A DNA stretch of 64,000 nt from Clavelina lepadiformis (lineage: Eukaryota > Chordata > Ascidiacea > Aplousobranchia > Clavelinidae), in the NCBI RefSeq assembly GCF_947623445.1, contig NC_135244.1:3906001-3970000 (forward strand), read 5' to 3'. Below the pieces are notes generated by a model. That model worked only from the letters and a program-made list of their open reading frames with translations. It ran no database searches and was not told the DNA's origin. Shown here in pieces: positions 18,350 to 63,963 of this stretch. Made by a program: the position numbers and the translations under genes. The stretch's first letter is position 1; each line of letters opens with the position of its first letter.

Positions 18350-20534
18350 TTACACACGTCTGTTTAGGGAATATCTGTTTAACCGATTGCGCGGAATAGC
18401 TGTAAAAAGAAAAAAAAATGTTTTAAAAAACAAAATAAGAGTTATTTTAAGGAAAATTTTGGTAATTTTTAAAATCACGACTTTTTTGCAAACATTAAAA
18501 ATTTAGTTACATTTTACAGTACTAAACGTATGCAAAACTGATCACAGACTTAATAAACACTGTTCTACAGTACTCACAAAATATTGTGAGTCCGGAGTCT
18601 TTGTTAAGTTTGTTGTCAACGACTTCACAGATCTGTATGAATTAATGGTGTTATTTATAGTAGAAGTTGACGAAAAACAATACACAAACAATCTACAAAT
18701 GTTACAAGAGTTCTCTCATCCATGAAATCAGGTTTAATTTCGGAGTTACGGTGAACCTCGACACCCTTGAATGAGAGTAACTATACAGTAAACCGCTAAT
18801 TGTCACGCTAAAGGTTAAAAGATACGCCAATTGCTAAATCGTCGCAAACACACAACACAATAACGCAAACACTATATAAACAACTAAGTGAAGAAAAGGT
18901 TTTTAAAACCGACTTACCTTGTTTTCAATAATTTTTCTAGCGATTGTGCCACGTAACAACTTCAAGATGGGGTTGATGATGAATTTGAGCTTGTTATCAC
19001 TGATCCTGATTTTAAAATCGTTTATGTCGTCATCGCAACTGTTTGGCAAAGAGGTGAGCTAAACGTAATAAAGCGTTAAAGATGCACAAAATCCGCGTTA
19101 AAGAGTTCTCATTTTTACATCATTATAAGATTGGTTACTTTCTTATGTTGGTTCCTCGTGTATACTTATTCAGTTACTAGCTATTTCATTTTGGTAAATG
19201 ACTTTATTAATAGGAATAAATAACAAGCTATAAGTAACATAAACAACTTGATGTGTAAATATATAAGTAACGAAATAAAAAGACGCATTGCGGATAGGTA
19301 AATTCGAGTTTTGCATATAAACCTGCAAATAAATATAAAGAACTATAGTGATGATCGACTTCAAGCCTGTCTTTTACATTTAAAATTTGTTGATATATTT
19401 GTTCACTGTAATTTGATATCATTGGGAGTTTTACCACAAGTTTTTCTCCCTTGGTTTCCAGCTTTAGTGTCACAGTCAAATCAATTTTACCGCTCACTTG
19501 GACATTACCTGATGTTTTAATAGTGGTCAACCTAAACACATAACAAAAGTTAAAACAAAACAAATTATGGTAACTTCAAATGAAGTTATTGCATGTCTTT
19601 GGTAGTATATCAGGCGACGTACAAATAGTCAATGATTTAACCAAAATATAGAATGAATATACTCACTTGAATTTCGGTGTTTTATCCAGAACCGTTTTTA
19701 CTACTTTTTTAGCAAGATCGAAAGGTTTTTTGACAACATTTTTAATTTTCTTGAAGACTTTGCCGATAAATCGTTTTTTTCTTCCAAAAAACGGCAAAGC
19801 GGCTGCTATAATTGGCACTCTAAAAAACAACAATCATTGTATTTAAAGTTTGTATAAATCAAGTTTTCAGTTTATCAACAAAACAAAAATTATAAAGTTA
19901 TTGAGTTGCATGATGAAGGACCTTAAGTTATACACATGAGTTGCATGAGAGAATAAAAACAATGTATTCCAATCACCTTATTTCTTGTTTGAATCGAAAT
20001 CTTCCTTTTATTGAAATATCGATGTTTTTCAGCGAAATCTTGAATTCACTTGGCTTTGGATTTTTGATTATAACGTTTCCTACGCTTGCTCTAGTGACGT
20101 CCAAGCTGGAAAACGTATCAGCTGTTGCATTAATCCAGCTTATCTCCAAATATATTGCATGATCTTATGTTTTTAGGTTTTATGTCAACTTGGGTTACTA
20201 TAGAAAACACAACCTATATACTTTGTGAGTTCCAACTTCTTGTTGTCTTTGATGTCGGGAATAGACGCTTGACGAAGAAAAGTTCCCACCATCAATTTCA
20301 GAAATCCGGCGACTGCAGGAGCATATAGTATATGAGTAAAATAGCTTAATTGTTAACATTGGAAAAACTTACTGTTATATCAATAGAAGATATTGTGCAG
20401 ATCACTTACAATTGTCCAACTGTGTTTGCGAGACAACAAGGGCTGACGATTTCTCGTTGAGACTAAAAACCACCACGAGAAGTAGTACGAGTTTGAATTT
20501 TTCCAGAAACATCGTGAACTTTGTAGTTTACAGC
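18350..20534 (-). CDS. secreted BPI/LBP-fold protein with cationic cassette, - class, gene M1
   Basis: Eight coding exons on - (ATG at 20512): 20410-20512, 20222-20312, 19977-20105, 19667-19819, 19435-19531, 18918-19058, 18578-18632 and 18350-18399, giving 272 aa. A signal peptide covers residues 1-24. Exon 3 ends in the BPI strand NIDISIKGRFRFK, matching human NANIKISGKWKAQK. The 153-nt fourth exon (residues 108-159) is an insert absent from the + class: RKKRFIGKVFKKIKNVVKKP plus a further basic helix, about +13 net. Exons 5-7 resume the BPI fold. Cys199 and Cys240 are the expected disulphide pair. The last exon encodes a short basic tail. A 74-nt 5'UTR intron lies at 20535-20608. The 5'UTR exon upstream of it is split by a piggyBac insertion, so expression may be altered. 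The coding frame is intact. Confidence 0.82.
19667..19819 (-). other. cationic cassette exon of gene M1 (51 codons, phase 2-2)
   Basis: The exon starts and ends in phase 2, so it could be skipped without losing frame. Skipping would give the exon order of the + class. The peptide has 15-16 Lys/Arg and 2 Asp, with hydrophobic residues spaced every three to four and one Pro between two helix-like halves. It sits at the tip of the BPI barrel. Paralogous exons lie at 48538-48681 and 53413-53562. Confidence 0.8.
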
Positions 20535-20653: not shown

Positions 20654-23172
20654 TTAACCCTCCGTCTACCATGGGGTCAAATTGACCCCAATCGTAATTT
20701 TACTGTGTGATTATTTCTTTAGTTTTAAAGATTGAACATTGAAATTTGGTGACTTTGTGCGCATACCCCAGTGGTATAACCAACACAAACTTCAGTAAAT
20801 AAAATCATCTTTTACTACGCCTGCCAAACGAAGCAGCGTTATGAACCAATGGGGTCAAATTGACCCCAACGGAATCATAACCGGAAAACTGAGGTTGCAA
20901 AAAGGTTTTTATATATAAATCACCAAAATAAACTAGGAGTTGCACTTTTATTTGTATATGATATAATAGTAACCACAAATATTAGTTTATTTTTGATATA
21001 TAAGACTGATACAGTAATTTTTTTTTGAAAATTGCAAAAGAGATAAAACCAACAATTTTTCAAAATACAAGAGTTCTACTATGGAAAGGAGATGGTTAAC
21101 TGTGGGGGATGTTGCGCGTTTGCTGGACGAAGAAGATCTAGAGTCGACTGATGATGAATATTTGTCTTCTGATGACGGAGAGGTTGATCACATCAGCGAC
21201 TATGCTTCCTCAGATACTTCAGTCGAAAGTGACAGTGAAGATGTTTCGTTGACAGCTGCCACAAGTTCTTTTCTCTCTCGAAACAAATCCGTATGCTGGT
21301 CTTCCAGTCCTGTAGGACATTCAGTTGGCAGAGCTCCTGCTCGCAACATCATCCATGCAACACCAGGCCCATCACGATTTGCCAACAGGCAAGGTGGTTC
21401 CGTTGTCGACTCATTTATGCTGTTTCTACGTCAACCACTCATAGAAACAATTTGTAAATGGACCAATGCAGAAGGAGAAGTTGTATACAACAGAGAATGG
21501 AAACATGTGGAAGCTGAAGAGTTCAAGAGTTTCATTGGCGTGGTAATACTTATTGGAGTTTATAAGTCAGGAAATGAAAATGCAACCCATCTTTGGAGTA
21601 AAGATGATGGCAGACCAATTTTCAACAAAATCATGAGTCGTGGAAGGTTTCAGCAAATACTGAGAGTTCTTAGGTTTGATGATGCACAAAGAAGAAGAAG
21701 AAATAGGTCTTTGGACAAACTTCAACCAATCAGAGAAGTTTTTGACACTTGGGATTCATACTTACGAGATGCGTATATCCCTGGGGCTTGCATGACGGTG
21801 GATGAGCAGCTCTTATGCTTCAGAGGCCGATGCCCTTTCCGGCAGTATATACCCTCTAAACCAGGTAAATACGGTATCAAAATTTGGACAATCTGTGATT
21901 CGAATACTTATTATGCTTGGAAAATGCAAGTATACTTGGGAAAAAATGATAACGCTCCCCGAGAAGTCAATCAAGGCACAAGAGTTGTTCTCGACATGAC
22001 AAAGGAGATTGAAAAATCTGGACGAAATGTTACGTGCGACAACTTTTTTACCAGTCTTTCACTGGCACGAACACTTTTGGACAAAAAACTAACCATCGTT
22101 GGAACGCTAAGAAAAAACAAACCAGAACTTCCTCCTCAATTCACAGTGGGAAAAGGTAGGGAGACCAAATCAACATTATTTGGGTTTCAAGATGATGCCA
22201 TGATAGCTTCGTATTGCCCTAAGAAGAACTGTGTTGTGCCGATGCTGTCAACTATGCATTCCCAGCCAGATGTTGATGCAAGTTCTTCAGACAGAAAGCC
22301 GGAAGTTATATTGTACTATAACTCCACCAAAGGAGGTGTCGATACCTTGGACCGGATGGTGAGAACGTACACCTGCAAGAGGATGACAAGAAGATGGCCT
22401 GTTGCACTCTTCTACAATATGATCGACGTCAGTGCTGTAAATGCCTTTATTGTATGGCTGGAATTGAATGGTGAAAGCCCAAGCATCAGTGTAAAGAAGA
22501 GACGAAATTTCCTTCTAGAGCTGGGTAAAGAGCTTGCTGGCGTGAACACCCAACCTGACCCCTCTCAAAGGTTTTCAGTTTCTTCTGCATCAGCACAAAA
22601 AAGAAGAAACAAAGATGATGTTGACAATCCTCCAAAAATGAAACGACAGCGCTGTAGCCTTTGTGACAGAAAAAAGGACAAGAAGACTAGTTTGGTTTGC
22701 TATATGTGCAAGAAGCACGTTTGCTCGGGACATTCCGAGACAATTTGTGGTCTATGTTGCTAGTGCTTTTGCATTGAACATTGCTATCTTGCAAGTGTTA
22801 TTTGTTACTTAGCTTTTGGTGTTATTTGTTAATTTTTTTCATTCTTTTACTGATGTTTGTTTATTCTAAAACTTTAGCATTTTTCGTTTGAATGTGTTAT
22901 TGTATTATTTGCGAGAGTACTTCAAAATGATTTTAGTTCACAAGTAATCCAAAACTTCATAAAGTATTTAACTGATCAAGCACGTAAAGTATATGCTAAA
23001 GCTTATACCAAAATTAATAAAACAACAGTTTAAAGTACTACTTTGCTATCCTGCATGAAAAGCAGACATTTAGGTCGTAGAACTACAGCAACATATGAAC
23101 AATACAGCATGGGGTCAAATTGACCCCATTGGTTCACAACGTTAGTTTTTTTCGTGGTAGACGGAGGGTTAA
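20654..23172. mobile_element. complete piggyBac DNA transposon
   Basis: TTAA target duplications lie at 20654-20657 and 23169-23172. Terminal inverted repeats of 13 bp (CCCTCCGTCTACC) are perfect. Subterminal TGGGGTCAAATTGACCCCA near-palindromes occur at 20672 and 20850 on the left and 23110 on the right. The interior has one uninterrupted transposase gene. Perfect ends and an intact frame indicate a young insertion, possibly still mobile. It lies in the 5'UTR of BPI gene M1, transcribed in the opposite direction. Confidence 0.95.
21081..22763 (+). CDS. piggyBac transposase (DDD family, PGBD-like)
   Basis: One exon, 560 aa. An acidic Ser/Asp-rich N-terminus (residues 15-60) precedes the DDE_Tnp_1_7 catalytic core. 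The three catalytic aspartates are recognisable from context: Asp241 in MTVDEQLLCFRGR, Asp320 in VTCDNFFTS and Asp421 in STKGGVDTLDRM, with the accompanying Asp424. The C-terminal CRD zinc-binding domain (about residues 524-560) is a dense run of C..C and C..H pairs ending GLCC. Length is normal for piggyBac (550-600 aa). It cuts and pastes at TTAA and excises precisely. No frameshift or stop is seen. ATG at 21081 is the first in frame and sits just after an AT-rich leader. Confidence 0.96.
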   Translation: MERRWLTVGDVARLLDEEDLESTDDEYLSSDDGEVDHISDYASSDTSVESDSEDVSLTAATSSFLSRNKSVCWSSSPVGHSVGRAPARNIIHATPGPSRFANRQGGSVVDSFMLFLRQPLIETICKWTNAEGEVVYNREWKHVEAEEFKSFIGVVILIGVYKSGNENATHLWSKDDGRPIFNKIMSRGRFQQILRVLRFDDAQRRRRNRSLDKLQPIREVFDTWDSYLRDAYIPGACMTVDEQLLCFRGRCPFRQYIPSKPGKYGIKIWTICDSNTYYAWKMQVYLGKNDNAPREVNQGTRVVLDMTKEIEKSGRNVTCDNFFTSLSLARTLLDKKLTIVGTLRKNKPELPPQFTVGKGRETKSTLFGFQDDAMIASYCPKKNCVVPMLSTMHSQPDVDASSSDRKPEVILYYNSTKGGVDTLDRMVRTYTCKRMTRRWPVALFYNMIDVSAVNAFIVWLELNGESPSISVKKRRNFLLELGKELAGVNTQPDPSQRFSVSSASAQKRRNKDDVDNPPKMKRQRCSLCDRKKDKKTSLVCYMCKKHVCSGHSETICGLCC

Positions 23173-31852: not shown

Positions 31853-33380
31853 ATGCACTTGAAGAAACTTCATCCTTTTGTTGCTTTGTTGGTTCTCATA
31901 AGCACTACAGCGACCACTGGCTGTTTAACTGTGCCCCAAAATGAACTTGACGAACGTGAGTGCTTTTGTAAAAAAAACTATGCATAAAATATTAAGTTCA
32001 TATAGCATATGACAAGATTTACGTGTTTTTTGAGCAGTTGCAAGCATTGGGGCAAACTTTTTGAAGGGCTACTTGGCACAGTTGTCGATTCCACGGCAGA
32101 AAGGAAGCAATTACGAAGCCTGGAAGTAAGTTTCTGAAGTCAAAAACAACTTGTTTTAAATTTTCCGACAGGCTGCAACATCATTAGGAAATATATATAA
32201 CATAGCATTATTGTTTTGCAAGTTATTGTTTAGCTCATTTTTTGCACTATTTCTATTTGCATTTTAGCATTAAGCTGGAAAGTTTCAACTTGGGAGCAAT
32301 CAGTATTAAACAACCAAAGAGATGTCAGTTTAGAATTTGCATTAAAGGCGCATATCTTCGAGCAAGAGCTGACTGGAAAGCTTGGAAAAAGATTTTGTAA
32401 GTATTTTCTAGAGACAAATGATACTTTTATCAAAACGCACAAAAATACAATGCGAAATGTTTGAGCTGTTTGGTTTTTAACAGAGTTGCCGTGCAAACGT
32501 TTTCTTTTTAAACTCAATCCTTTATAGGTTCTTTACCTTGCGTAAATCAGGAAGCCTTCGCGCTACAGGAAGTAAAGTTGACCTTTGCCTAACAATAGAA
32601 CTGGGAACAAGAAATGGCCGCCCTTATGTGAGTTGGGATAAAATTTTATTTTAGTTGACAACGCTAGATTTTACATTATGTAAAATTTGAGTATAAAAGA
32701 CCATAGCCTATAGCCTATCTTATGTATTTATTGATCGGAATAGCAAAATGTGTTAGTTGGTTTTCTAGTTTTCATATGTGCCAAAAAGCTGCTACGCCAA
32801 CATTGGTAAATTTGACGCCAAAGTTTACAACACTTCGCTCAAATGGATAATCAACCTCATCATTAATCTCTTCGAAAAAAAGATCAGAGACAAAATAGAA
32901 GACCGAGTGAGTAAAATCTAAAACAAAATTTCAATTACAAAAATCCACTGGTTTTATTTTTAAGTTATTTTAAGTAGTTATCTGTTTCACGTTACACAAT
33001 TTTTACCAACTTGCAAACGTTATTTTTAGATTTGCCCAGCTGTGGAATCAGCAATGACTAAAAATGTGGCCAAGCTCAACCAACAACTTTTGGGTAAGAA
33101 CGTCATTTATAACACCAGTAATCTTGCAAAACATGTTTTGTTATCAAATGTTTAATATTGTTGTTGCAAAGGAAAAATAAGACGATTGTTTAGCGAACCA
33201 ACCTCCAAGCAAATAAATTAGTTAATTATCAGTTTATATAATGATTTTTGATTAGAGGTATTTTGTAAAACTATGCCAAAATTCTGTTTATTGGTTAAAC
33301 CAAAGTTTTTGCTGATGCAAATGGTGTTTTAGTCAGAAAATTGTTTTCTATTTACAGCAAACCTTCACCTCCGTGGATAA
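31853..33380 (+). CDS. secreted single-domain BPI/LBP-fold protein, + class, gene P2
   Basis: Seven exons: 31853-31955, 32038-32125, 32268-32396, 32528-32627, 32769-32906, 33030-33093 and 33358-33380. Exon lengths are identical to P1 (103, 88, 129, 100, 138, 64, 23), giving 214 aa. A signal peptide MHLKKLHPFVALLVLIS.. is followed by LTVPQNELDE. Exon 3 gives YLRARADWKAWKKIL, the BPI tip; exon 5 carries the conserved Cys of KSCYANIG and the helix WIINLIINLFEKKIRDKI; exon 6 gives the partner Cys of ICPAV. It ends HLRG. All introns have GT..AG and all frames are open, so it looks functional. The closest relative is P3, made by the tandem duplication. Presumed extracellular lipid/LPS binding. Confidence 0.87.
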
Positions 33381-36880: not shown

Positions 36881-37169
36881 CATTGCGATTTAAGCAACTT
36901 GGAAAAATATATAACATAGAGGCAATAAGCATCACAAGCACATATAGGGTTGACCATATGAGCCTAATGCAATAAGGAAAAAAGTGAGGTGGCCACAAAT
37001 GAAATAAAATTTTCTTCATTCTTGTATACGGCAATGTGTCGGATATTAAAAGATCAAACTTTCGGGAAAATGTAATGACGCGTCAGTTAACGGTTCTGAT
37101 AATTCTGTATATAGTTTTTATATGTATAAACAGATATCGATTACAAAATCAATTATACGAACTACTCTC

Positions 37170-37590
37170 CACAGTGCAACCAGTGCAACACAGTGCAACA
37201 CCAAAGCGCACCAGTGCAACCAGTGCAACACAGTGCAACACAGTGCAACACAGTGCAACACAGTGCAACACAGTGCAACACAGTGCAACACAGTGCAACA
37301 CAGTGCAACACAGTGCAACACAGTGCAACACAGTGCAACACAGTGCAACACAGTGCAACACAGTGCAACACAGTGCAACACAGTGCAACACAGTGCAACA
37401 CAGTGCAACACAGTGCAACACAGTGCAACACAGTGCAACACAGTGCAACACAGTGCAACACAGTGCAACACAGTGCAACACAGTGCAACACAGTGCAACA
37501 CAGTGCAACACAGTGCAACACAGTGCAACACAGTGCAACACAGTGCAACACAGTGCAACACAGTGCAGCACAGTGCAACCTACAGGTTGC
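37170..37590. repeat. 10-bp minisatellite (CAGTGCAACA)n
   Basis: 34 perfect, uninterrupted units cover 37221-37560, with variant units on both sides and an inverted end (CAGTGCAACC TACA GGTTGCACTG) at 37571-37594. The homogeneity implies recent expansion; true copy number may differ from the assembly. Because 10 is not a multiple of 3 and the unit lacks stops, every frame is open on both strands with a 10-residue period. These frames are artefacts. It replaces the stretch that in unit 1 holds the orphan BPI exon 2. Confidence 0.97.
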
Positions 37591-38221
37591 ACTGTTAAAA
37601 AACAAACTTTTAGTTAAAATAGCAACAAACGTTTCTGACAAAAATTACGTCGTATAATAGAACTTCGAATCAAAGTTTCAGATTGTCAATTTTCGAATAT
37701 GGAGGTTAACCGGATTACGTTTGTGATACGAATGATTAGCGGTTGCTGATGCTTCAAAACCACAGCGTTGGCCGGCGGGGATCATCAATGTTGTTGTCAT
37801 TACAGTTGGTTATATATATATACTGTAGTGGCGTGAAGAAAGCAAAACGCTTACGTGCCACATGAGCGTCATCCCGAAACTGATTTATACTTTATCAATA
37901 TCACACTCACCACTAAGAAACCTTAATCTGATTAGACTACTGGTTAATTGAAGATGTGTTCATGCAAGGTTTTCATTTGTTTTATTGATTTTTTTCGACT
38001 GACGGTGACAAATCTATGTGATGTGACAAAACTGTTTGAGAATGTTGAAATTACATTAGCATAAAACATTATTTGAACGCAGTCTTTGTATCTTTCTTTA
38101 TTCACATTTTCAATTCAATAAACCTAATATACAGTATGAATGTGAAATCTTGACGTTCAACGCAACATGCAGTTTTAGTTGACCCTTTGAAGTTGTTTTC
38201 TGGATCTACGCATCACATTGG

Positions 38222-46221: not shown

Positions 46222-47015
46222 CTAGGACAAAGTCTGACTGCAAAGTTTGGAAAAAGATCTTCTAAGTGATTTCTCTTGTTAGTTAAACGATATTTATAAC
46301 ACAGTATAGATTATAGAACAAGAATTTAATGCTAAATTTTGATTGATGAACTCCGTTTTTAAAGGATTTTTTGTACAATCGTTTTCTGCTGGACTCCGTT
46401 TAATATTTCAAATTTTCATCTTTTGTAAATCAGGAAGCCTTTGGGCTTCAGGCAGCAAAATCAACTTTTGCCTTACGCAAAGACTTGGAACAAAGAGCGG
46501 TCGTCTTTATGTGAGTTAAAACTTAGTTTAATTGTGATTATTATTTACAATATATAGCGCACAGTTGAGCATATCTGTAAGTCGAAAACACTACACGTTG
46601 TTTCAAGCGTTGTACGATACGACATCTTAAATGGGTGCAAGAGTAAATAGTGTTAATGGAATTTTTATACGGTTTTCATACATACTAAAAAGCTGCATTG
46701 CCAACACCGGTAAATATGACGATAAAATTTACAACACTTTATTTATTCACTTTATGGATAATCAACTTCGTTAAAAACCTCTTCGAAAACAGGATTTGAA
46801 ACAAAATAGAAGACAGAGTGAGTTAAACAAGATTTGAATTATAAAAGTTTACATGCTTCTGTTTTAATTTTTGGTGTTGCTTAGATACGTATAACCTTTC
46901 TGTTATATGGAATTTATCTTAATTTCAATATTTTGTTTTTACATTTGTCCGGCTGCGGAATCCGCACTGACTAAAAACGTGGCAAAGCTCAACCAGAAAC
47001 TTGTGGGAAGGAACA
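46222..47015 (+). pseudogene. BPI-fold pseudogene, + class (exons 3-6 relics)
   Basis: Remnants lie in gene order: exon 3 tail at 46225-46265 (CTGACTGCAAAGTTTGGAAAAAGAT), exon 4 at 46421-46512 (TCAGGAAGCCTTTGGGCTTCA.. to CTTTAT|GTGAG), exon 5 at 46675-46820 and exon 6 at 46946-47012. Compared with P2/P3, exon 5 carries an inserted TTTATTCAC-type duplication and a TGA in the helix, and exons 1, 2 and 7 are not found. It is clearly dead. It derives from the same family as P1-P3 and is more diverged than they are from each other. Confidence 0.8.
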
Positions 47016-47745: not shown

Positions 47746-49380
47746 TTATCGACGCGTGAAATATCCAGGAAAAGCTGTTGAAAAGGCAAAAAAAAAATTT
47801 TTATTTTATAGTACTGTACATAAACGTTGATATTGTTTAAAAATAATGCGGATAAATTTTTTAAATTGATAATTTTTGTTAGTTGACATAAAGTTACAAT
47901 CCTTAACAAAACAATACTCACAGAAAAGCGTGGTTCCGGTCCTTCTGTTAATTTTGCTTTCGACAGTCTCGCAAATCTATAAAATTTATTAAACTTTCAA
48001 GTTTAATCAAACATATACAGTAATTCACAAATTTGATGACCAAATTTACACACATATCAAAGAAAAACAGTCAGGTGAAAACAAAAAGAATTTCTGAATA
48101 TATCCTTACCTCGCCTTCGATATAATTCCTAGCAATTATGCCACGTAACAGACTCAGAATAGGATTGATATAGTATTTGAGCCCGTTGTCAGAAATCCTA
48201 ACTTTAAAGTTGTCTACGTCGTCATCACAACTATTGGGTACAGTGGTAAGCTGATAGAAAAATTGCAAAAGTATCATCATACTGAAACTTTCTGGTTAGA
48301 ACATCATTGCCAAACACACGCACACACACACACGTACACATAAGTAGATATTTTGGGCAGTCTTACCACAAATTTTCCTCCTTGAATGGTCAGCTTGAGG
48401 GTCACTGTCAAATCTATCTTAGCGCTGGCAGTGAATTTACCTTGAGTTTCAAAATGGAACAACCTGGAAATCCACAAGAGGTCGCATCAATCAATGTGGT
48501 TAAAATATTTCCAAAAACAAAACCAAATCATGCTTACTTGATTTTGGGTATTTTGTCAACTACTTTGTCAATTAACTCTTTAGGTTTTTTGATAACATTT
48601 TTAATTGTGTTGAAGACTTTGCCAATAAATCTCTTCTTCCTCAATGGAAAAAACGGCCGAATAATTGGTCCAACTGGCACTCTGCCAAAAGCATTGTTGT
48701 AGACACATCATGATATAATCATGAGATTATCATATGTTATATATTAAATTTCAAATCAATAAATCTTTATACAACCCAAGTCGATAATTAACCGAAAACA
48801 ATGAATATGCACAAAATACTTTAAACTATAAAATCTGTTTAAATTTTGGTTTCTCACTTTACTTCTTTCTTGACACGAAACCTGCCGTTTAACGAAATTG
48901 CGACATTTCTCAATGACACTTTAAACTGGTGTGCTTTCGGATTTGTAATCTTGATGCTTCCAACATCGGCTCTGGTGATGTCCAAGCTAAAATTTGGATT
49001 TTATTTGGTCACATTTAATATAAGTCTATATGTTGCCAAGAAAGAGATCGCGTTACCTATAATATCGATAAGTTATTATCCGTACTAAAAACAGCTTACT
49101 CTCTAAGTTTCAAGTTTTCGTTGTCCGTCACATCCGGAATCCGCGCTTGGACGAGATACGTTTCCATCAGCGGTTCCAGAAAACCGGCAACTGCAAGTAC
49201 AAAGTGAATTAGTTTGCTTGATAACTTGATGATATTAGTACTGTACTTTGATTTAAGTAGATGTGTCTGTCACTTACGGTCGTTCAGTTCATTTTGTGGG
49301 ACAACAAGTGCCGATGACTTATTGCTAAGCTTGCAAATTGCCACACAAAGAAGAATAAGTCTGATTTTGTCAAAAAACAT
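47746..49380 (-). CDS. secreted BPI/LBP-fold protein with cationic cassette, - class, gene M2
   Basis: Eight exons on -: 49278-49380, 49100-49190, 48858-48986, 48538-48681, 48367-48463, 48110-48250, 47922-47976 and 47746-47774; 262 aa. A signal peptide covers residues 1-24, then LVVPQNELND as in the + class. Exon 3 ends NVAISLNGRFRVKKE. The cassette exon is 144 nt (48 codons, residues 108-156): PLRKKRFIGKVFNTIKN, then IKKPKELIDKVV, net about +11, less cationic than in M1 and M3. Exon 6 gives NSCDDDVDNFKVRISDNG (Cys196) and exon 7 gives ICETVE (Cys237). The last exon encodes only a short tail ending FTRR. Exon lengths 1-3 and 5-7 equal those of M1. A 5'UTR acceptor (GTTCAG) lies at about 49407. 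Looks intact. Confidence 0.84.
48538..48681 (-). other. cationic cassette exon of gene M2 (48 codons, phase 2-2)
   Basis: Same position and phase as the M1 and M3 cassettes. It conserves RKKRFIGK, the IKN turn and the KKP hinge, but has acidic residues in the second half. Three codons shorter than the M1 version. Confidence 0.8.
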
Positions 49381-50450: not shown

Positions 50451-50650
50451 TATATAAGCGTGGTCAAAACGGAATATGAATGCGGCGCATTTTCGTTTTT
50501 TCGTGTTTGCTTACACATTTGCTAACATTGATAAATTTGATAGTTAAATCACGTTAAAATCACTTCGCTCAAACATGTAGACAATGAACATTGTCATTAA
50601 CCTGTTCGAAAAAAAACATAATGGAAAGTTAGATGACAGAATGAGTTGAA
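50450..50650 (+). pseudogene. TATA box plus BPI exon-5 relic, + class
   Basis: CGACTATATAAGC at about 50449-50460, like the + class promoters, is followed within 60 bases by a degraded exon 5 (GCTAACATTGATAAATTTGA, then CACTTCGCTCAAA, CATTAACCTGTTCGAAAAAA, ending at GTGAGT-like GAGTTG at 50642). All exons between promoter and exon 5 are missing, so this is an internally deleted gene relic. Confidence 0.65.
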
Positions 50651-51746
50651 TATTTTAAAACTATTGTAATAGCGTAGAATCATAGATATATATACTCGTT
50701 TTTGTATACTTTCCTGTCGCTTCATTTTTCGTTGTTTTGTACTTTTTATTGTCATTACTTGTTTTTGTCATAGCATCCAATCCATCATATGCTCTTCAGT
50801 TGATTAGGTGTAGAATTTGACCTAACCAAAAAAATTTTTTTTTAGTACATATTTCTTTAGGGGGATGGAATATTGTTTTATTAAGCGCGTGTTGTGGGTT
50901 TTATTCAAGACAAAGGTTCTATTTGACAAAAAAAAATTTTTTGAAAAGATATCGTCACAATGGATGATGTGAAATATATTGTACATATTCTACAATGAAA
51001 TGACAAAATTTATTTACTGATTATAAGACAATAAGTTAAATTTATATAAAAAAGACATTAAATTTCATCTGCCTGGATGGGGATAAGATTTAAGAAAACA
51101 AAATCTATGAAAAATAAATTTGAATTTTTGTTGCTCGACGTCATCGTTGCGAGTGTTGTTTGATTTTGTAGCTTTTTTACTGCAACCCTTAGATCTTCTC
51201 AAAGTTTCTAAAAAGTGCAAAAAGCAAACTTTTACGCTCATATATCAAAAATGAGACATTAAGGGCCGAAGTCGCCTTAAAGTAAATTTATCAGTCCCTA
51301 GTGGGAGCCAGATATTTATATGTTTTTTAATTGTGAAAATGAAAAAGAAAAACAATAAAATCATACATAATCCTGTATAACTATCACATCTAAACGTGAT
51401 TTATTGCAATATTACAACGTTTCGGTAATATTCCACAATTTTTTAACACAAAGCTTAAATACCCCATACCGAATATCGAAGCATAACTAATACGCATTAA
51501 TATGCGCCTTCGCAACCTTATTATAAACTGTTTCAGTGATCTGAAACAACTGAGAGCCGGAGTTTTTCACGATTTATTTGTTAAACTAAATCTCAATGTT
51601 CTTAAGCAAATGTAACTCTTAGATAATATGCAAAATTAACCAATATATGCTTAAAGATATACTTAAATAAAAGTTATCATTATGCTTGATGATGTTGCTA
51701 CGTTTAGCTTTTGTTTTGAAGCTCGTTCTTCCACTTTCATACTTGG
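50651..51746. other. intergenic DNA, no gene recognised
   Basis: AT-rich. Nothing recognised. Confidence 0.4.
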
Positions 51747-52588: not shown

Positions 52589-54248
52589 TTATCCACTTGA
52601 AAAATAACTGCTTGACAAGTAGGGAGGAATAGCTAAAAACGATAAAAAAACACAAGTTTTACAGAAAATAAAACTTAATCAATTAGTTTAAATAAACTTT
52701 CAAGAAAACCTACATCACTTTAACATAAAATCTCCGAAAAAAGCATCATACTCACAGAAAACTGTAGTTCCAGGTCCTTTGTTGATATTGTCTTCAACAG
52801 CCTCGCAGATCTAGAAAGGGCAGCAAAATCGCATGTTAAGTACAAGCAGACGACACAATTTCACATACTTACGTCAATTAAATGCAATTAGGCTAAGACG
52901 AGATAAAAGTAAGACAATCTTACTTCGTCTTCAATGTATTTTCTAGCGATGGTGCCACGTAACAGGCTTAAAATAGGATTGATAAGAAACTTGAACTTGT
53001 TGTCACCAATCTTAACTTTAAAATCGTCTATGTCGTCATCACAACTGTTTGGCAAAGTGGTGAGCTAAACAAAAACATCTATAAACTTCTAAAATTCTGC
53101 TCCTAGTATGACTAATACACATATGTTTATATGTAATACATATGCTTATATGTATATTGTGTACGTAATATATTTTACAATATTTTCGTGTCTATAGAAG
53201 CCTTACCACAAGTTTTCCTCCTTGAAACGTCAACTTGAGGGTCACAGTTAAGTCTATTTTTCCGCTGGCTTTAAAACTACCGGAAGATTTAATGGTGGTC
53301 AACCTGTAAAATTGGCAAACTCAAGATTTAACATAAACAAGACCACATGAACAAACCTTAAACAAAATTATAATGTGTCTTTGGCAGGTCCATAATTTTG
53401 CAAAATACTCACTTAAATTTGGGTGATTTGTCTATAACTGTTTTAACCACTTTTTTAGCCACATTCACAGGTTTTTTGATAATGTTTTTAATTTTCTTAA
53501 AAGCTTTGCCGATGAATCTTTTCTTTCTTCCGAGTACAAACGGTAGCGCCACTATCGGTACTCTGTAGAGAAAACGTTTATGTACAGATAATTACTCTAT
53601 CATTGAGTAACATCCTGAGTGTTTGTAAGGTATTAAGTTTGTCAGAATAGCAAACAAGCAAGGTCTTTTTAGCACAAAATTGCCTCGAAGAATGAGAAAT
53701 ATTTCATTATCAATTCCTTACTTTACTTCTTGTTTGACACGAAATCTTCCGTTTATTGAAAGATCGATATCTTTCAATGAAACTTTGAATTGGCTCGGTT
53801 TCGGATTCGTGATTGTAATGCTTCCAACATTGGCATTGGTGATGTCCAAGCTGAAATAGCAATCAGATGCTGCGATAATTAATCCAGCCTTGTTACCGCA
53901 ACAATACGCAGTCTTCTGTTTTGTTGGCTTTTTATCAGCTTGTACTACAAGAAAACAGAACTTACTTCGTGAGTTGCAGTTTCTCGTTGTCTTTCATATC
54001 CGGTATGGAAGCTTGTCCGAGAAAACTTTCCATCAATGGTTCAAGAAAGTCGGAAACTGAACAAGCATGACAGATTAATTGATTGCTAGCATGGTAAAGT
54101 CGACAACATATGTTTCGGCCGTCACTTACGGTTGTTTAATTCACTTTGTGGAATTACAAGGGCTGAAGATCTTCCGCTAAGGCTGAAGATCGCCACACAC
54201 AGTAAAACGAGTTTGCATTTGTCCACAAACATTTTGATCTTCGATATC
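52589..54248 (-). CDS. secreted BPI/LBP-fold protein with cationic cassette, - class, gene M3
   Basis: Eight exons on - (ATG at 54232): 54130-54232, 53966-54056, 53722-53850, 53413-53562, 53207-53303, 52924-53064, 52756-52810 and 52589-52632; 269 aa. A signal peptide covers residues 1-24 (MFVDKCKLVLLCVAIFSLSG..), then LVIPQSELNN. Exon 3 ends DIDLSINGRFRVKQE. The 150-nt cassette (residues 108-158) reads RKKRFIGKAFKKIKNIIKKP, then AKKVVKTVIDKS, net about +15 with one Asp. Exon 5 SGSFKASGKIDLTVTLKL aligns with the + class exon 4. Cys198 and Cys239 form the expected pair. The tail encoded by the last exon (SIPPYLSS...) aligns with that of M1 and supports that exon in both. A 5'UTR intron is likely (acceptor at about 54249, donor at about 54396), with a TATA box at about 54463 on -. 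Intact. Confidence 0.85.
53413..53562 (-). other. cationic cassette exon of gene M3 (50 codons, phase 2-2)
   Basis: The most cationic of the three: 16 Lys/Arg against a single Asp, with hydrophobic positions spaced i, i+3, i+4 in both halves and a Pro between them. Confidence 0.82.
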
Positions 54249-59639: not shown

Positions 59640-60609
59640 CGTAAATGTATTGGCCCAGCTTGGCACCGTGATTGGAAATGGCCTCTTCCACAATTATTGG
59701 ACATTCCTTAGATAAAAAAAACAAAAACTTGTTTAAGCTACTGTACTAAGATATAAAGAAATAATTTTAGCATTGGAGTACGTCTTTAAAATTTAAAATT
59801 AATTATTTTATTTAATGTGATAGATAATGCTAGATAAACTACAGGTATATGTAAAACAAAATTAATGCCCTACATTTTGAAGTTTTCTCTTCAGTTTTCC
59901 GTTAAAAAACTTTAAGAAAAAGTTGAAGAAGCCGCTGAAAAAAGAGTTTTGGACATCAAAACTAAGTCCTCCGATGTTGACTGAGCAACTCCCACTAACA
60001 GGAGAAATCTAGAAAAATACTAAGATTGTATACTGTAGTTATGTAAAAATAGAACCAATTTATGTATAATTAATCGCACACTAACTTTCGGAGGCAAATA
60101 GGATTCTGTTAAAATGGTCACCACAAGATCAACGTTATTTATTTCTGCAAACACGGTTCCTGTTAGAGACAGGAAATATCTGAGGAAAATGATATTATAA
60201 AAAATGCGAAATTCAAATAGTTATATTTGCGTAATAGTCAGAACCTCCTCTAAACGAATAATAATTTGACATTATAAAGGCTGGTGTACAATATCTCAGT
60301 TCGAATGTTTTCCTAACTTCACTCTCCAATCAGCCGAAAAATACAGAACAAAGCTCTTCAGAGAAATTCTCCATTCATCTGCGCTTTTATTTGTTATTGT
60401 AGTTTTTCCAACGTTCCTATTTTTCCAAAGCTTCGCGCTACAAAAATATAAATTAAAATGGATAAAAGATTTTGCAGCATATTTCAAAATACTGAGTCGC
60501 TTAATGTTTTTCTCACTTCGTGGTTTGAATATAGTCTCCGGTGTGGGGTGGAAGTTTAACTTTTTGAAAAGAATCAATAATTGACAAAATTTTTCTCTGC
60601 GCCATGCGC
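59640..60609 (-). CDS. diverged BPI/LBP-fold gene without cassette, gene M4 (exons 2-6 seen)
   Basis: Five exons on - in consistent phase: 60517-60609, 60318-60437, 60086-60179, 59874-60008 and 59640-59706. The first gives QKVKLPPHTGDYIQTT, matching human BPI KRIKIPDYSDSFKIKH in position. The second gives NVGKTTITNKSADEWRISLK, then FSADWRVK, the strand leading to the barrel tip; the third gives LTGTVFAEINNVDLVVTI; the fourth gives SGSCSVNIGGLSFDVQN and the helix FFNFFLKFFNGKLKRKL; the fifth gives ECPIIVEEAISNHGAKLGQY, with the partner Cys. The 138-bp intron after exon 3 holds no cationic cassette. The signal-peptide exon and the terminal exon were not found with confidence, and the entry phase of the 60609 acceptor is uncertain. 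A divergent member, possibly functional; family membership is well supported. Confidence 0.65.
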
Positions 60610-63370: not shown

Positions 63371-63963
63371 CCTTTGCTCTAGACTCTAGAGCGTTCTTTA
63401 GGGTCCCACTAAAGATCTTCAAAAGGTGGTTGATGATGCTATCGAAGGAAGTATTTTGTACACTCAAACTGATCTCCCCGGTACCAGAAGAACAACTTCC
63501 AGGAGCTATAGAAACCTGAAAAAATGATCATGTTTGTATGTAAACAAGCAACTCTCTGTATACAGGTTTATAAGAGACCCATGCTTACCTGGGGACGTCC
63601 ACCTGATATTCCCAGAACAAACGTCACTGCAAGGTCAACATCACTAGCGGCAGCGCGAAGACTTCCCGCCAGTGATAAAAATAAGAATCTAGAAAAACTT
63701 AGTGTTGGTAACCATGAGCATAAAGTTAAAATTTGTAACCTTTTAAGTTTAACATATTTCAGCTACGGTAAATAGTTGAAAACAGATACTATATTGACGT
63801 TTATGCAACAATTACATAAAATCAGATGATTTTCTTTTAAAAACCTTACTTTCCAATCAGCGCTAACATCTACTATACGTTGCTAAGACTGACTTTAAAC
63901 TGGTTTGGATTGGGGTTCGTTATTGTGGTCAGTTCAGCGTTTGCATCTTTTTCAAGCACTACA
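63371..63963 (-). pseudogene. BPI/LBP-fold gene M5, partial at window edge, frameshifted
   Basis: Three exons on -: 63845-63963 (LTTITNPNPNQFKVSLSN, then SADWKV in another frame), 63589-63688 (LAGSLRAAASDVDLAVTFVLGISGGRPQ without break) and about 63371-63515 (GSCSSGTGEISLSVQN and the helix IINHLLKIFSGTLKNAL). They align with BPI exons 3, 4 and 5 of the + class. The first is 119 nt where its neighbour M4 has 120; the missing base lies between SLSN and IVDVSADWK and brings TAG TAG into frame. Either a pseudogene or a sequence error. There is no cassette in the 156-bp intron. The donor at 63370 also breaks the usual phase. Upstream exons lie beyond 64000. Confidence 0.6.

Follow-up and report, generated by a model that had tools for sequence, protein, structure and literature searches.

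A lysine-rich exon with a furin-type motif at the hairpin site of three BPI-type genes in the ascidian Clavelina lepadiformis

Three BPI-type genes and their relatives

The window analyzed here is a stretch of 64,000 nucleotides from Clavelina lepadiformis (contig C5, NC_135244.1, positions 3906001-3970000). It contains three minus-strand genes, M1 (18350..20512), M2 (47746..49380) and M3 (52589..54232), each predicted to encode a secreted, single-domain BPI-fold protein. The genes were spliced manually and every internal junction was checked; each has eight exons, GT...AG internal introns and a single open frame to the stop. The exons of M1 are located at 20410-20512, 20222-20312, 19977-20105, 19667-19819, 19435-19531, 18918-19058, 18578-18632 and 18350-18399; those of M2 at 49278-49380, 49100-49190, 48858-48986, 48538-48681, 48367-48463, 48110-48250, 47922-47976 and 47746-47774; and those of M3 at 54130-54232, 53966-54056, 53722-53850, 53413-53562, 53207-53303, 52924-53064, 52756-52810 and 52589-52632. 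Coding exon lengths are 103, 91, 129, 153/144/150 (M1/M2/M3), 97, 141, 55 and 50/29/44 bases, and the spliced frames comprise 272 (M1), 262 (M2) and 269 (M3) codons. M2 and M3 are 65% identical. All three products begin with a hydrophobic leader that resembles a signal peptide, as judged by eye, and in all three the stop in exon 8 follows one BPI domain, so the two-domain boomerang of BPI/LBP proper is not present.

The assignment of these proteins to a family depends on their neighbors. Against the Pfam profile LBP_BPI_CETP (PF01273), M3 scores 28.1 bits (E 2e-6) and M1 26.2 bits, both under the curated cut-off of 28.8, and M2 by itself has no match to this profile. A phmmer search of the PDB with M3, the only M protein tried, found no BPI match. 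The paralogue P31, encoded on the plus strand at 31853..33380 (214 aa, 7 exons, with exon 3 at 32268-32396 and the next exon at 32528-32627), is a single-domain BPI that passes PF01273 with 44.3 bits (Pfam E 2e-11); its alignments with human BPI (1bp1) and LBP have E values of 4.9e-7 and 7.7e-7, respectively. Two further plus-strand paralogues are P11 (11658..12906), whose final exon is unplaced, and P43 (43424..44930), a partial model whose first exons come from tblastn only. The M and P genes have common exon sizes of 103/88-91/129/97-100/138-141, and M3 shares 32% identity with P31 and 30% with P11. Cys198 and Cys239 of M3 are invariant in 5/5 aligned sequences, and their P31 counterparts align with human cysteines; we take them to be the pair that forms the BPI disulphide. 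By way of these close paralogues of equal exon structure, M1-M3 are assigned to the BPI/LBP N-terminal domain.

Just upstream of M1 is an intact-looking DNA transposon (20658-23168), presumably of the piggyBac type, whose inverted ends, CCCTCCGTCTACCA, are bordered by TTAA; its plus-strand frame (21081-22763, 560 codons), scanned from the second codon, matches Pfam DDE_Tnp_1_7 at E 3.6e-86. A tandem duplication occupies 24600-46000, with copies 10.1-12.2 kb apart and 85-96% identity in the two-copy stretches shown, and contains BPI genes without the extra exon described below (P31 and P43) as well as lone pieces that resemble first exons (26729 and 38482). A minisatellite of 10-base period that reads open in more than one frame (several frames) is located at 37111-37600. 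BPI fragments at 46406-47008 and 50518-50682 have shortened or broken exons and are probably decaying genes. The BPI cluster extends past M3, because more BPI-like exon matches occur on the minus strand at 59949-60415 and 63378-63944. BPI-family exons are also clustered on contigs C9 (10.8-12.04 Mb) and C4 (22.39-22.42 Mb). Among the exons that were read, a junction resembling WKAWKK leads into an intron-like break, except for two on C9 that have ASKT there.

A conserved exon at the bactericidal hairpin

Exon 4 of M1 (19667..19819, 153 bases), M2 (48538..48681, 144 bases) and M3 (53413..53562, 150 bases), all on the minus strand, encodes a cassette of 48-51 residues with a net charge of +14, +11 and +15, respectively. 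Both of its boundaries are in phase 2, because the three preceding exons add up to 323 bases (103+91+129) and exon 4 is itself a multiple of 3. The cassette is ordered as a hydrophobic linker of the form V-P-[IV]...P-F, the tetrapeptide R-K-K-R, a predicted helix (A), a proline, a second predicted helix (B) and a return to the barrel. An earlier note on this DNA had given the same coordinates exactly and the same phases, and its net charge of about +11 to +15 agrees with the values computed here.

The killing of Gram-negative bacteria by BPI depends on a short cationic hairpin, which we take, from the human crystal structure, to be the tip of the barrel. In the alignment of P31 with human BPI (1bp1), WKAWKKIL of P31 stands opposite human W91-L98 (W91 K92 A93 Q94 K95 R96 F97 L98, with residue numbers as counted along this alignment), and exon 3 of P31 ends in the codon opposite Leu98. 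In M1-M3, exon 3 matches that of P31 in both length (129 bases) and end phase, and the cassette comes next. Through this paralogue the cassette can be shown to map to about Leu98 of human BPI, within its bactericidal hairpin, and the placement proposed in the earlier note is thereby supported. The placement relies on paralogues and the common intron, because M3 found no BPI in the PDB and M1-M3 are below the cut-off or without a match in Pfam; the junction was read from intron positions, because the MAFFT alignment scattered paralogue residues inside the cassette. If the limits of human BPI region II are taken as 82-108, the insertion point falls inside this region. Killing has been reported to be determined by 15 residues of human BPI region II, and in scorpionfish BPI a dense positive cluster is reported at the N-terminal tip (PMC10353861).

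The cassette is conserved among the three genes. Its identity is 80% between M1 and M3, compared with 67% for barrel exons 2, 3, 5, 6 and 7, and 62% between M1 and M2, slightly above the 57% of the same barrel exons. Between M2 and M3 it is 59%, below the barrel value of 68%, which we count against the interpretation favored below. The eight codons of R-K-K-R-F-I-G-K differ at 5 (M1-M2), 3 (M1-M3) and 4 (M2-M3) of 24 bases, and every change is synonymous, so the core that had been noted as conserved is invariant in protein. Nei-Gojobori dN/dS for exon 4 is 0.07 (M1-M3), 0.34 (M1-M2) and 0.17 (M2-M3), values that are rough because dS is 0.74-1.6, near saturation, and that show purifying selection on the exon. 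By its frame, splice sites and selection, exon 4 of M1-M3 can be shown to be a real coding exon.

Searches of the genome covered 209.06 Mb in 95 contigs. The published assembly has 210.1 Mb in 102 scaffolds (PMC10884593), so small pieces may be missing from the searched set. Within it, the DNA pattern for RKKRFIGK had exact matches in M1-M3 only, and a protein search with the M3 cassette returned M1-M3 only at E up to 10, with no donor gene found. Allowing one mismatch in RKKRFIGK added 10 places; of these, 7 were read in frame without any resemblance to a secreted peptide, and 2 had a stop in the pattern. These matches are near chance, because a reversed-pattern control gave 7. Genome searches with a styelin sequence and with clavanin A gave no match, an empty answer that is uninformative for such a search. 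The cassettes had no Pfam match in M1 and M2 and only a phage model in M3 (E 0.066, under its cut-off), and no convincing relative of the cassette was found in the PDB (best E 0.48 with the M3 cassette and 9.5 with a three-row profile). Origin of the cassette as a piece of a transposon was considered and dropped, as it occurs in M1-M3 only and is under selection.

No cassette was seen in the equivalent intron of any of the 14 relatives examined (P11, P31, P43, seven on contig C9, three on C4 and one elsewhere on C5). In nine of them the intron has no open phase 2-2 AG..GT stretch of 75-240 bases; five have such a stretch, with a net charge of at most +5 and RKKR in none of those printed (up to 3 per relative, with approximate ends). 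By parsimony, a single-domain BPI gene probably acquired exon 4 within an older phase-2 intron, ahead of the divergence of the three copies; gain rather than loss is proposed because the relatives and human BPI are without the cassette.

Predicted helix, furin-type motif and likeness to tunicate peptides

Helix A follows the pattern F-I-G-K-x-F-x-x-I-K-N-x-x-K-K (15 residues, mostly Lys-rich) and is encoded on the minus strand in M1 (FIGKVFKKIKNVVKK, 19726..19770), M2 (FIGKVFNTIKNVIKK, 48585..48629) and M3 (FIGKAFKKIKNIIKK, 53472..53516). Its hydrophobic moment is 0.75, 0.70 and 0.75, respectively, with shuffle P values of 0.0042, 0.0032 and 0.0039, and its net charge is +6, +4 and +6. In each mature protein, the 18-residue window with the highest moment begins at the Arg that precedes F-I-G-K. 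The moments of helix B are 0.53, 0.68 and 0.51 (M1, M2, M3), equalled by 3.2, 3.5 and 4.7% of shuffles, and its charge is +2, 0 and +3. Both helices are thus predictions from hydrophobic moment, the second the weaker, and Chou-Fasman helix means of only 1.00-1.14 count against the favored interpretation, as does M2, in which helix A is only +4 and helix B neutral. The description of the segment as conserved, cationic, amphipathic and Pro-hinged is borne out, helix A having a moment of 0.70-0.75 that is found in 0.3-0.4% of shuffles. An extra barrel strand was also considered for the cassette and dropped, since the moment of helix A at 160 degrees is 0.06-0.12, versus 0.70-0.75 at 100 degrees.

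Immediately before helix A, each of the three predicted secreted proteins has R-K-K-R, an exact match to the furin-type pattern R-x-[KR]-R, on the minus strand at 19771..19782 (M1), 48630..48641 (M2) and 53517..53528 (M3). It is the sole such match in each protein; with no second R-x-[KR]-R, release of a free short peptide by furin alone is not expected. The M1 and M3 cassettes have 14 Lys and 2 Arg, both in the motif, and the M2 cassette has 11 Lys and 3 Arg, one of which lies outside the motif. Cassette arginines therefore occupy P4 and P1 in 2/2 cases in M1 and M3 and in 2/3 cases in M2. Shuffled cassettes yield R-x-[KR]-R in 1.0 (M1), 3.0 (M2) and 1.1% (M3) of cases. Since both BPI cysteines are C-terminal to R-K-K-R, and the pair is thus wholly in the C-terminal half, a cut at the motif would break no disulphide of that pair. 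Against cleavage, Phe at P1' is not known to be favored by furin. Furin has been reported in morula-cell granules of Botryllus (PMC9966394). Helical antimicrobial peptide candidates of Ciona are described without basic processing motifs (PMC7387483), which we likewise count against cleavage. The built-in tip segment proposed in the earlier note is real, conserved and cationic, but the furin-type motif had been overlooked; given R-K-K-R just before the helix, this segment may be nicked instead of remaining an unbroken loop.

The cassettes were compared, without gaps, with 12 peptides, 2 of them taken from published sequences. Styelin A (GXFGKAFXSVSNFAKKHKTA, PMC8719109) scored 39, 35 and 38 against M3, M1 and M2, the highest of the 12 in all three. 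Clavanin A (sequence from PMC4904370) scored 26, 30 and 30, LL-37 35, 33 and 28, and cecropin P1 34, 33 and 21 (same order); by raw score clavanin A is not set apart from LL-37, cecropin A, cecropin P1, pleurocidin or BMAP-27. Under class-preserving permutations, which shuffle residues solely within the hydrophobic, basic and other classes, only styelins A and B and clavanin A gave values of 0.062 or lower in all three cassettes; cecropin A reached 0.031 in M1 alone. The scores of styelin A and clavanin A were jointly reached by 0.225, 0.45 and 0.4% of permutations (M1, M2, M3) and their summed score by 0.6 (0.625), 1.05 and 1.2%, for a choice of peptides made post hoc and for homologous cassettes whose P values are not independent. 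The best register between styelin and clavanin matches the one obtained through the cassette, and that pair alone is not significant (0.25). In this register, the residue after R-K-K-R aligns with the second residue of styelin A and the fourth of clavanin A, and the invariant cassette Gly aligns with clavanin Gly6. Substitutions of Gly6 are reported to have nearly abolished clavanin activity (PMC4904370).

The ascidian-peptide texture that had been noticed in the segment reappears as an in-register likeness beyond class-preserving permutations, with the post hoc choice stated above. Because these peptides were singled out once their likeness had been seen, and because the cassettes are homologous, we treat this likeness as a lead toward common descent or convergence, not as proof. 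In the styelins and clavanins of Styela clava, an F-x-G-K....[IV].N pattern in a cationic amphipathic helix falls in the same register as in the cassette, a likeness that may or may not reflect homology. They are stand-alone short peptides, with precursors reported to be cut N-terminal to D or DD (PMC7387483), whereas the cassette is an internal exon of a gene of 262-272 codons and not a stand-alone prepropeptide with a short mature peptide of the styelin/clavanin kind.

A candidate protease-activated helix in a BPI domain

The best explanation of these observations as a whole, to which we give a probability of about 50%, is that an antimicrobial-type helix was gained at the BPI tip and is probably freed by a furin-like protease. 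The BPI domain would bring the M protein to lipid A or to a different anionic lipid of the bacterium. Within haemocyte granules or the secretory path, a furin-like protease would cut after R-K-K-R, and the halves of the domain would be held together by the sheet. The cut would expose an N-terminus similar to that of styelin or clavanin, F-I-G-K, which could then insert into the membrane and disrupt it. A more specific form of this proposal is a protease-armed two-in-one antibiotic, in which a styelin/clavanin-type helix was captured, or evolved afresh, as an exon in the BPI killing hairpin, the furin site frees its N-terminus and the barrel aims it; this form we hold only tentatively.

The intact cassette might instead, in line with the proposal in the earlier note, enlarge the cationic LPS-binding tip with a hinged helix pair, R-K-K-R serving as charge only. 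The net charge of +11 to +15, the amphipathic character of the cassette and its position, which corresponds to the cationic hairpin of human BPI, would suit such a role, and furin-type motifs are not always cut. Against this stands the use of arginine: the 12, 9 and 12 basic residues outside the motif (M1, M2, M3) are all Lys save one Arg in M2, so that Arg is nearly confined to P4 and P1, where it has been kept through synonymous codon change. We regard an uncut extension as somewhat unlikely. Less likely again is a basic loop with no membrane activity, binding heparan sulphate, tunic polysaccharide, nucleic acid or a partner protein; Lys-rich segments generally bind polyanions and M2 carries less positive charge than M1 or M3, but such a loop would need neither the 100-degree hydrophobic periodicity nor the in-register likeness to tunicate antimicrobial peptides.

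Two other explanations concern the exon rather than the helix. Skipping of exon 4 preserves the frame in all three genes and would yield the architecture of the paralogues, and exon 4 could be included in some tissues or after infection only, giving ordinary and helix-bearing BPI from one gene. The donors of exon 4 are near-consensus (GTGAGTAT in M1, GTAAGCAT in M2 and GTGAGTAT in M3), which argues against this, and we consider optional use improbable, though compatible with the favored proposal of a helix freed by protease. That exon 4 is an artefact (unexpressed, a set of chance open frames, or part of decaying genes) we find scarcely credible: the neighboring BPI fragments at about 46.4 and 50.5 kb do look broken, but each of M1-M3 has an open model, their exon lengths correspond, and exon 4 is under purifying selection.

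The favored proposal can also be set against known BPI-fold proteins. The N-terminal domain of human BPI (1bp1, 1ewf) and LBP (4m4d) is the same domain, with the two conserved cysteines and, in the P31 alignment, the hairpin at the insertion site; neither has an insert at the cassette position when aligned with P31. Human BPI and LBP have a second domain, whereas M1-M3 end after one. Helix alpha4 of human SPLUNC1/BPIFA1 presumably precedes the first strand and is not in the hairpin. Against the human BPI hairpin and alpha4, the likeness of the M3 cassette helix is not beyond permutations (0.71 and 0.32). SPLUNC1 (256 aa, PMC6456746) is, like M1-M3, a single-domain BPI-fold defence protein, and deletion of its amphipathic alpha4 is reported to lower antibiofilm activity 1.5- to 3.1-fold (PMC6138395). 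Compared with the cassette, alpha4 is weakly charged (+2, moment 0.373), and the 30 residues printed in that source contain no Arg and hence no furin motif. Pieces of BPI proteins can act as antimicrobial peptides, as described for flounder LBP/BPI-derived peptides (PMC4210897) and for a 27-residue human BPI peptide (PMC4894568); these are parts of the common fold, whereas the cassette is an extra exon with a processing motif. The statement in the earlier note that no equivalent has been described was overstated in view of alpha4, a helix in a BPI fold (PMC6138395). It holds to the extent that no BPI protein with such an insert appears in the titles and abstract openings among the matches listed in the PMC open-licence literature, a collection that subscription papers mostly lie outside. 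Two domains are reported for human and oyster BPI in a review of marine invertebrates, the available text of which covers BPIs of oyster, squid, annelids, sea urchins and molluscs and has no occurrence of ascidian or tunicate (PMC10672452).

In M1-M3, the site of the human killing hairpin appears to have been enlarged by a separate exon with signs of both a helical antimicrobial peptide and activation by a protease. If the proposal is true, two unrelated defence devices would have been fused through the gain of one symmetric exon.
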